Source: Synechococcales cyanobacterium PMM_0003
Lineage (GTDB): Bacteria > Cyanobacteriota > Cyanobacteriia > Pseudanabaenales > Pseudanabaenaceae
Reading direction: 5' to 3'
Length of the DNA stretch: 12,287 bases
Assembly (NCBI GenBank): GCA_949128015.1
Contig: CASBRC010000104.1
Location: forward strand, 1-12,287
Shown: positions 10,632-12,287 of the stretch, piece by piece
Layout: every line of letters starts with the position of its first letter
How positions within the stretch are numbered: the stretch's first letter is position 1
Position numbers and translations under genes: made by a program
The notes under the pieces: generated by a model
What the model was told of the DNA's origin: nothing
Database searches by the model: none
The model's input: only the letters and a program-made list of their open reading frames with translations

Positions 10632-11357
10632 ATGACTGAATTTGAGCTTTTAGCTTTGGAAAATATGACAAATCCTTCCTTAGAAAAGCTTTTTTACTCT
10701 AGTCTCGTCACCGAGCATATTGTGCCGAAAGGTAATGACTTTGCTTTTAAAAAATGGCACCACAATCTCGTTGAAATATTAAAGCGCTATGACGGATTTC
10801 TTCGTAGCGATCTCTGTCCACCGCTCAGGTGCAAAGATCCAGTCGTAAAATGGTACTACATTATCCATTTTGACTCACCCGAACATCTCAATCAGTGGAT
10901 GGAGTCAAGCGATCGCAAAAAGTTATTAGAAACTGGTCAGGAGATATTTTCGGCATATCGATTTAAGTCTTTTACTACGGGCTTAGAGGGTTGGTTCTCG
11001 ATGCAGTCTGGTACTGCTGAGAATAAAGGCTTAGGGCCACCACGCTGGAAACAAATCCTAGTCGTCGTCTTGGGGCTTTATCCAGTAGTGATGATTCAAG
11101 CGATCGCATTTTCAATATTGGGCTTTATGCAATCTTGGTCACTGGCTAGCTCAATGATTGTAAATAACCTGATTACCTCAACAGTACTGAGTCTACTAGT
11201 AATGCCTTTTGTTTCAAAACGATTAAGCTTTTGGTTGCAACCTGCCTATCGACTAATATCTCTTAAAAAGAATTTAATTGGCTCTCTCATCGTGGCGGCT
11301 AGTTTGGGATTAATGGTAATTGCCTTTAATGGAGCTTGGAGTCTAGTTAAGCAATAA
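10632..11357 (+). CDS. ABM-like domain fused to a three-span membrane domain
   Basis: The 241-aa protein has a soluble N-terminal part (about 20-125) resembling the antibiotic biosynthesis monooxygenase (dimeric alpha-beta barrel) fold: a leading strand (SLVTEHIV), a helix (FAFKKWHHNLVEILKRYDGF), a middle strand (KWYYIIHF), the typical HFDSPEHLNQWMESSDRKKLL stretch and the GLEGWF ending. Residues 140-165, 171-195 and 213-235 are hydrophobic and form three likely membrane spans, so the barrel would sit on a membrane face. Such fusions are usually annotated only as ABM domain-containing proteins; no catalytic role is established. The gene stands alone between palindromes and a converging pseudogene, whose frame overlaps its last 11 bp. 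The ATG has a distant AAGG (12 nt). The start is reasonable but not certain. Confidence 0.75.
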   Translation: MTEFELLALENMTNPSLEKLFYSSLVTEHIVPKGNDFAFKKWHHNLVEILKRYDGFLRSDLCPPLRCKDPVVKWYYIIHFDSPEHLNQWMESSDRKKLLETGQEIFSAYRFKSFTTGLEGWFSMQSGTAENKGLGPPRWKQILVVVLGLYPVVMIQAIAFSILGFMQSWSLASSMIVNNLITSTVLSLLVMPFVSKRLSFWLQPAYRLISLKKNLIGSLIVAASLGLMVIAFNGAWSLVKQ

Positions 11358-11625
11358 ACCTTAAAAGCCTTGACGCATGTATTAAAATGCCAGCAACAAA
11401 GAAACCGACATAACGGCTTCCAACTCCTGTCATTTGGATTACGCCATTGTTTTGACTAAACGTAGTATTTGGGAATGTATTTAAAATTGAGGCAATTAAG
11501 GAGTTAATTCCATCTCCTAGCACTCCACTCTTGATTCTGCGGATATAAACTCCACCTGAAACTGGCTCTCCATATACAACGGATGTCGCATTTCCACCCC
11601 CAACCAACTCAAAATGCGATCGCAA
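11347..11625 (-). pseudogene. Internal fragment of an NCS2-family xanthine/uracil permease
   Basis: Residues 14-82 of this 92-codon frame (11586-11380) read like the middle of a nucleobase:cation symporter of the NCS2/NAT family. They include SGVLGDGINSLIASILNTFPNTTFSQNNGVIQMTGVGSRYVG (31-72 of the frame, given here in part as GVLGDG, FPNTTFSQNNGV and QMTGVGSRYVG), containing the family signature Q-N-x-G-x4-T. E. coli XanQ has very similar text from memory (TTFAQNNGVIQMTGVASRYVG region). A complete permease has more than 400 residues, and neither the upstream nor the downstream transmembrane parts are present. The upstream end merges into a GCGATCGC-containing repeat, and after GILI the reading turns to unrelated sequence. 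The only start is a TTG inside the repeat. It is a relic, not a functional gene. Confidence 0.8.
11585..11625. repeat. Degenerate extra copy of the flanking repeat
   Basis: This stretch (CGCATTTCCA, then CCC, ACCAA and TCAAAATGCGATCGC) matches the right half of the direct repeats at 11618-11684 and 12220-12287 with a few changes. It overlaps the broken 5' end of the permease fragment and abuts the next copy. Confidence 0.6.
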
Positions 11626-11684
11626 TTCCCAAAATCAAAGCCCGATCGCAATTTCCAACCCTCACCAAATCAAAATGCGATCGC
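11618..11684. repeat. Direct repeat bounding the toxin-antitoxin cassette, downstream copy
   Basis: A unit of about 67 bp contains two GATCGC-type sites and the phrase TTTCCAACCCTCACCAAATC, ending in AAAATGCGATCGC. It matches 12220-12287 with a few substitutions and single-base indels; the last 35 bases are identical. It lies 14 bp after the toxin stop codon. Confidence 0.8.
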
Positions 11685-11698
11685 AAAAATTGCTCGGT

Positions 11699-11965
11699 TT
11701 ATCCTTCGTAATGTCCACCAATAGCAATGATGTATATGTTTTCGTCATCAAAGCTATAGATTAGCCGATCTTTATCAGATAATCGCCGTGAGTAGTATCC
11801 AGCTAATTCATGTTTCAATGCTTCAGGTTTTCCTGTTCCTTGGGTGGGATCGCCCTTCTGCATCTCTTTAAGAATATTAAATAATTTTTTGTGAATGGGT
11901 TTATTAGTCTCTCTGAAATATTCGTATGCTTGCAGAGTGTCTTCATGAAATACGACTGAGCGCAT
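11699..11965 (-). CDS. yoeB: Type II toxin, YoeB/Txe family mRNA interferase
   Basis: The 88-aa protein matches the YoeB/Txe branch of the RelE/ParE superfamily, which cleaves mRNA in the ribosomal A site and halts translation. Features along the chain are FHEDTLQAYEYFRETNKPI (N-terminal helix), GTGKPEALKHELAGYYSRRLS (43-63), DRLIYSF and the C-terminal GGHYEG. E48, R67 and H85 fall where E. coli YoeB has its catalytic E46, R65 and H83, and Y86 matches the conserved Tyr. Length is normal and all key residues are kept, so it is probably active. The ATG at 11965 lies inside the antitoxin gene, so the two frames overlap by 23 bp, which suggests translational coupling with the antitoxin first. It is named by homology; the paired antitoxin is not the usual YefM. 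Confidence 0.9.
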   Translation of the reverse strand: MRSVVFHEDTLQAYEYFRETNKPIHKKLFNILKEMQKGDPTQGTGKPEALKHELAGYYSRRLSDKDRLIYSFDDENIYIIAIGGHYEG

Positions 11966-12161
11966 GATGCTTCTGCTTATGGTTTGTGATTAGTAATTGA
12001 ATTTGTGAGATGAGTTCTGGATTGTTGAGAATGTAGTCGAAATCAATAAAATGGTTTGGTTGAGGGGGAGATGTTTTCTGAGCTTTATTTTTAAATTGCC
12101 TGATCTGTTGCATCAGGGGTACGTTACTCAGGACATATTCGGTTTCTTGATGAGTGTCCAT
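11943..12161 (-). CDS. Putative antitoxin of the YoeB-type toxin
   Basis: This 72-aa hydrophilic protein precedes and overlaps the toxin gene, the standard antitoxin position. It is not a recognisable YefM/Phd protein: the N-terminal DNA-binding fold of about 50 residues is absent. It contains two similar segments, EYVLSNVPLMQQIRQ (8-22) and DYILNNPELISQIQL (42-56), sharing Y-x-L-x-N-x-x-L-x-x-Q-I. These resemble the toxin-binding helix at the C-terminus of Phd/YefM proteins, as judged by eye. A Pro-rich linker (about 30-38) separates them. The start is ATG at 12161 with no clear Shine-Dalgarno sequence. The antitoxin role is inferred from position, overlap and size. Without a DNA-binding domain, self-repression may be missing or supplied by another protein. 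Confidence 0.68.
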   Translation of the reverse strand: MDTHQETEYVLSNVPLMQQIRQFKNKAQKTSPPQPNHFIDFDYILNNPELISQIQLLITNHKQKHHALSRIS

Positions 12162-12219
12162 AAGGTTTAGTAAATTTGGTGGTCTACATTTACATTTCTA
12201 GCATATCTGACAACTTGTT

Positions 12220-12287
12220 GATCGCCCATTCCCAAAAACAAAACCCCGATCGCATTTCCAACCCTCACCAAATCAAAATGCGATCGC
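12220..12287. repeat. Direct repeat bounding the toxin-antitoxin cassette, upstream copy
   Basis: This is the second copy of the unit at 11618-11684, in the same orientation, starting 59 bp upstream of the antitoxin ATG and running to the window end. It may continue into further copies beyond the edge. The interval 12162-12219 between antitoxin and repeat must hold the promoter: on the minus strand a -35-like TTGTCA is visible but no convincing -10 box. Confidence 0.8.

Follow-up and report, generated by a model that had tools for sequence, protein, structure and literature searches.

Toxin-antitoxin operons of Pseudanabaena are strung in arrays between HIP1 repeat tracts, at which they appear to be won, lost and reordered

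Results

The window locus

The window, that is, the whole stretch of 12,287 nucleotides analysed here, is the entire contig C104 of a Pseudanabaena MAG (G000; 503 contigs, 77% complete). At its right end lies a two-gene cassette between repeats (Table 1). The earlier note had described a YoeB-type toxin-antitoxin (TA) module enclosed by two repeats of the same orientation, and both elements were confirmed: the repeats are co-oriented and 91% identical (E 1.3e-18), and the toxin gene is recognised by PF06769 and, above its cut-off, by TIGR02116, as is characteristic of the YoeB-family toxin of a YoeB/YefM type II TA system. A third, degenerate copy had also been proposed. This sequence is real and, taken as reference, matches the copy at 12250-12287 with 89% identity; however, it is one half-unit of the same left-hand tract and not a separate copy. 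The half-unit begins about where the homology to the NCS2 permease fades (alignment, judged by eye).

Table 1 Genes and repeats at the right-hand end of the window
Feature	Position	Strand	Basis
241-aa gene, left landmark of the locus	10632..11357	+	Present in relatives, six with an intact permease adjoining
NCS2 (xanthine/uracil) permease gene remnant, both ends missing, adjoins array	11347..11625	-	PF00860 positions 245-324 of 389; alignment with six relatives
Single B half-unit with terminal HIP1 core, left end of the tract	11586..11623	+	38-nt family; matches model positions 30-67 of 67
Repeat unit, A and B half-units joined by HIP1 cores	11618..11684	+	Repeat search, model match
YoeB/Txe-type toxin gene	11699..11965	-	PF06769 77.8 bits; TIGR02116 67.7 bits (cut-off 51.8)
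72-aa partner gene, probable antitoxin, overlaps toxin gene	11943..12161	-	Pair order, E-T-x-Y-V-L segment
Right-hand repeat unit beyond the cassette, truncated by the contig end	12220..12287	+	Repeat search, model match

The partner had no match in Pfam or NCBIfam, and the N-terminal DNA-binding part of a Phd/YefM-type antitoxin was not recognised in it by Pfam. It starts at a segment that in distant relatives comes after the N-terminal part. The order of toxin and partner is identical in genomes G023, G018 and G022, and the E-T-x-Y-V-L segment of the partner also occurs in the antitoxins of distant YoeB loci. On these grounds, the pair is a putative YoeB-type TA module, with the partner probably acting as antitoxin. 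By eye, the partner seems to be devoid of the Phd/YefM N-terminal part of its distant relatives, and a toxin-binding-like segment is apparently doubled in it (ETEYVLSN... and DFDYILNN...).

The contig terminates within the right repeat, and the window shows nothing beyond 12287. To judge from the other contigs and genomes described below, the window probably represents one end of a larger TA cassette array, and its module one bead of a many-cassette system. As the break of the MAG contig falls exactly inside repeat 12220-12287, short-read assemblies probably under-report such arrays.

Anatomy of the repeat tracts

The palindrome GCGATCGC (HIP1) was counted 22 times in the window, where 0.15 occurrences would be expected; thus, the octamer is ordinary for the host genome, but the longer unit is not. 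That the octamers form part of a larger repeat, as had been suggested beforehand, is borne out by 17 matches of the longer unit in its own genome at E<=0.001, 12 of which lie on contigs C104, C169 and C462. A model of the unit yielded at least 43 matches at E<=0.01 (150 of 7841 first-look candidates scored). HIP1 cores are over-represented and fixed in position within the unit, and the mean column identity of 21 aligned copies is 82%. Across the GTDB genomes, from which the window's own genome was perhaps excluded, the exact unit has five matches on two contigs, both of CAN_BIN31.

Each tract is composed of alternating half-units, A and B, which are joined by CGATCG cores. In 17 arrays with 429 classified half-units, 298 of the 307 neighbouring pairs alternate, and all half-units scored (427/427) are co-oriented within their array; the genes between co-oriented tracts face either way. 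G accounts for 3.2% of the half-unit interiors on the repeat strand. The spacer sequences vary: G000 and G006 share family F1, contig C433 of G000 carries a second family, most of the remaining genomes examined have F3, and one G023 array has F4. In the copies examined, tracts start and end with HIP1 or HIP1-like cores.

The folding of single strands of the unit gave z-scores of about -4 to -6. A hairpin was nevertheless rejected as the recombination site, since its stem consists mostly of two HIP1 palindromes pairing and is therefore uninformative beyond HIP1 itself. A G-quadruplex on the G-rich strand was likewise rejected (2 motifs in 96 tracts). Known RNA families gave no match at gathering score at six loci, and one 3.5-kb array query found no match in a plasmid collection.

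Arrays and their cargo

Other genes between copies of the repeat, which the earlier note had proposed to look for, were found in the same genome. On C169, C462 and C433 the cargo comprises RelB/ParE, DUF6883/DUF4926, BrnT with a CopG- or BrnA-type partner, ParE-like, HEPN/nucleotidyltransferase, PIN, DUF5615/DUF433, XisH/XisI and Gp49/HTH genes. A few ORFs there, including one for a pentapeptide protein and one of 108 aa, do not resemble TA genes or are unmatched. Similarly built arrays, the longest of about 16 kb (in G018), were detected in nine further Pseudanabaena genomes (G006, G023, G025, G002, G020, G018, G022, G001 and G017).

In the complete genome G023, three HIP1 cores lie within about 100 nt at 127 places. 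According to our own count, 88 of the 100 matches listed fall in five clusters; four are TA arrays and the fifth, by eye, adjoins a MazF-like ORF. Of the proteins scanned in the cluster at 1202-1212 kb, which was located by its HIP1 pattern alone, 9/10 belong to TA or XisI families. Gene counts exclude ORFs made of repeat sequence, which were recognised by a peptide-motif rule. The commonest Pfam families among 93 array representatives (set A2, 93 of 123 listed) are TA families. None of the 25 most frequent families was of this type in the neighbouring-gene control (set A3), for which 93 of 135 listed ORFs were retained by thinning by hand; the ORFs omitted included every one from L049 and L054, most from L053 and those in the TA-bearing part of L156.

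Several array genes deserve mention on their own account. The DUF6883/DUF4926 pair moves as a cassette like TA pairs (L018 8946-9550; L147 8352-8965; L151 8534-9132; L159 7084-7646) and may constitute a candidate undescribed TA system. A 211- to 240-aa protein that is unmatched in Pfam is common to arrays of five genomes (L154 10846-11481; L146 5525-6247). Finally, a Mutator-family transposase gene is located inside a TA array (L150 10110-11321; PF00872, assigned by matching description).

Cassette order in different genomes

The array proteins form 133 clusters, 47 of which are common to at least two genomes when G025, which is nearly identical to G023, is set aside. G025 is also omitted from the following adjacency and block-end counts, which are directed, most comparisons being counted from both genomes. 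Gene adjacency is kept within cassettes in 67/69 cross-genome comparisons and across a tract in 4/38; pairs of neither kind kept it in 3/3. At the nucleotide level, arrays of different genomes share 216 homology blocks, which span one gene (134), two genes (79) or three genes (3). Among the 430 ends of these blocks, 336 fall in non-coding DNA and 283 both fall there and lie at most 35 nt from a HIP1 core, compared with 33% and 17% of array positions (baseline), respectively. Block ends lie at a median of 11.5 nt from a core, random points at 111 nt. Between G000 and G006, cassettes are 91-96% identical and homology stops at the repeats.

The window's own cassette also recurs elsewhere, mostly beside different genes. 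Relatives of its YoeB gene with at least 85% identity are present in 11 other Pseudanabaena genomes (with an internal stop in two). Counting the window, 10 of 12 loci are flanked, on one side or both, by a tract with at least two HIP1 cores. In G002 and G021 the cassette lies between the same two chromosomal genes with no tract adjoining. The neighbour on the antitoxin side is a second YoeB-like gene in G023, G025, G024 and G012, and a different one in each of G018, G022, G010, G013 and G019; on the toxin side, agreement is confined to the pairs G023/G025 and G002/G021. Compared with G023 and G018, homology of the window's cassette starts close to a HIP1 core at one side and, at the other, reaches into the tract or passes through it; beyond the core the repeat families differ. 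Of the 30 YoeB loci retrieved, 15 lie outside the genus, and in none of these does a tract come within 300 nt of the cassette. A unit scattered over hundreds of sites unassociated with genes, together with a cassette fixed in place, would have spoken against exchange as a unit; this is not what we found.

Empty sites and a hybrid tract

Sites with a repeat and no cassette, the second search that had been proposed, exist as well. G023 and G025 are nearly identical (98.1-99.6% in most aligned blocks, 96.5% and 93.4% in two shorter ones). In one array, two tracts of G023 enclose four additional ORFs (about 2.1 kb); G025 possesses a single tract there. The left end of this tract matches the left tract of G023 and its right end the right one, as expected if recombination between direct repeats had left one hybrid copy; its middle is a full match to neither, so that the correspondence is incomplete there. 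The numbers of half-units per tract differ between the two genomes. In some of their other array differences, one end falls within a tract and the other does not.

At a second locus, a gene that we take to be RuvX-like is followed by a 184-aa gene in 22/26 genomes; at this junction G023 and G025 carry an array instead, and G016 and G007 other genes. The unoccupied junction of G002, G020 and G013 has no HIP1 core; therefore, the first entry of the array used no resident tract. At the window locus, relatives differ in what follows the 241-aa gene: of their 15 best loci, 6 have an intact NCS2 permease gene (400-480 aa) and 9 have other genes. In the window, the middle part alone of the permease gene is left beside the tract. 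Taken together, the comparison with relatives supports the idea of the earlier note that the cassette can be exchanged as a unit.

Occurrence beyond Pseudanabaena

In G037, which belongs to another family, TA-type genes lie beside the tracts in 7/7 tandem-looking HIP1 regions, picked by eye among the matches listed, and all ten proteins scanned match TA-type families, one of them below its cut-off. A HIP1-based cassette system may thus reach beyond Pseudanabaena. The seven G037 loci contain nine attC-like heptamers, and integron cassettes could therefore be present there. The tandem HIP1 tracts of these loci (L276-L282) have different spacer sequences. As a genus marker the HIP1-triplet count was rejected, because several other cyanobacteria reach similar counts.

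Discussion

In this study, we observed that TA operons are strung like beads in Pseudanabaena arrays, in which tracts of short repeats built around GCGATCGC serve as spacers. Comparison of strains suggests that the beads are won, lost and reordered at these tracts. Among the open-licence papers searched, including PMC4390886, PMC6604393 and PMC4963859, no earlier account of such arrays was found. The arrays bear on two long-standing questions, namely how chromosomal TA modules spread and what purpose HIP1 has. As HIP1 is located at the joints of the repeats where strains exchange TA operons, its role as a recombination signal becomes directly testable.

The most likely explanation, and in our view a probable one, is that homologous recombination between direct-repeat tracts reorders the cassettes. 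Each cassette would be a small operon, most often with one toxin and one antitoxin gene, flanked by direct-repeat A/B tracts. Recombination between tracts, presumably of the RecA type, would remove, add or exchange the intervening DNA and at the same time alter tract length. New cassettes would arrive on incoming DNA, and a common pool would be reordered among strains and arrays, whose genes are predicted to be active TA systems. Homologous recombination of this kind would be expected to leave mosaic arrays, a hybrid tract and tracts that share an orientation but vary in length. Neisserial repeat arrays are likewise exchangeable cassettes bounded by repeats, and short repeats could supply the homology for swaps between them; they differ from the HIP1 arrays in their repeats and their cargo. 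Against homologous recombination between tracts we count the incomplete middle of the hybrid tract, the entry junction devoid of HIP1, the G023/G025 differences that end outside a tract, the tract-less cassette of G002 and G021, the antitoxin-side neighbour shared by four genomes and the hand-thinned A3 control.

It is tempting to speculate, though we do so tentatively, that the arrays are a cyanobacterial analogue of the integron without integron integrase, which stores and trades TA modules and in which HIP1, or HIP1 methylation, is the recognised crossover site. In several respects they do resemble chromosomal integrons and integrase-less attC arrays (CALINs), in which cassettes of one or two genes, often TA pairs, are gained, lost and reordered. 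They also share with them short co-oriented repeats that vary between arrays and separate exchangeable cassettes. They differ in that the HIP1-built repeats lack attC boxes and vary in unit number, the genes lie in both directions and no integrase adjoins the arrays examined. The arrays thus show an attC-free route to shuffled gene-cassette arrays.

A related but rather unlikely explanation is that such an integron analogue has an enzyme of its own, a putative site-specific recombinase acting on the HIP1-bounded tracts. Exchange cassette by cassette and the uniform orientation of the sites do look integron-like, and the HIP1 or HIP1-like cores at the tract ends would suit such an enzyme. Elhai (2015; PMC4390886) also reports that there is evidence for a link of HIP1 to site-specific recombination and none for a link to homologous recombination. 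As in the HIP1-linked recombination of Synechococcus and the insertion of SDR5 into HIP1, both cited there, HIP1 is here found at repeat joints and near homology breaks; however, those cases concern single sites or a small element, and here tandem A/B tracts lie between exchanged TA operons. However, no candidate enzyme was found (the systematic search covered integron integrases), and the variable length of the tracts and the hybrid tract suit plain homologous recombination. The HIP1 arrays offer a natural test case for distinguishing the two kinds of recombination.

That the tracts are by-products, such as HIP1-rich spacers or small dispersed repeats growing beside TA genes, and that the TA genes are shuffled by other means, we regard as very improbable. 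HIP1 is common genome-wide, TA cassettes also exist without tracts, and HIP1-triplet counts are high in some other cyanobacteria as well. Against this reading speak the uniform orientation, the A/B alternation, the homology breaks within tracts and the hybrid tract.

Least credible of all is that the tracts are degenerate attC sites and the arrays integrons that have lost their integrase: integron cassettes often carry TA genes, integrases scored above the curated cut-off in two of six genomes tested (G002 and G023) and classic attC-like repeats lie at one integrase locus (G023), but 96 tracts (14 arrays) contain 0 ordered R''/R' box pairs and the L049 integron region six, the heptamers GTTAGRC/GYCTAAC number 12 in 113,178 bases of array sequence and 16 in 37,002 bases of control loci (two with integrases), and the arrays examined are located away from the integrase loci of G002 and G023. 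The box scans, and the different attC-like repeats at an integrase of the same genus, led us to reject an attC or integron identity. In G000 the best match to an integron integrase reached 32.7 bits (cut-off 265), which is no proof of absence since this MAG is 77% complete. The two integron integrases lie at L049 1-5317 and G002:C1:4696011-4696949, and one of them is adjoined by attC-like repeats and HicAB-like ORFs.
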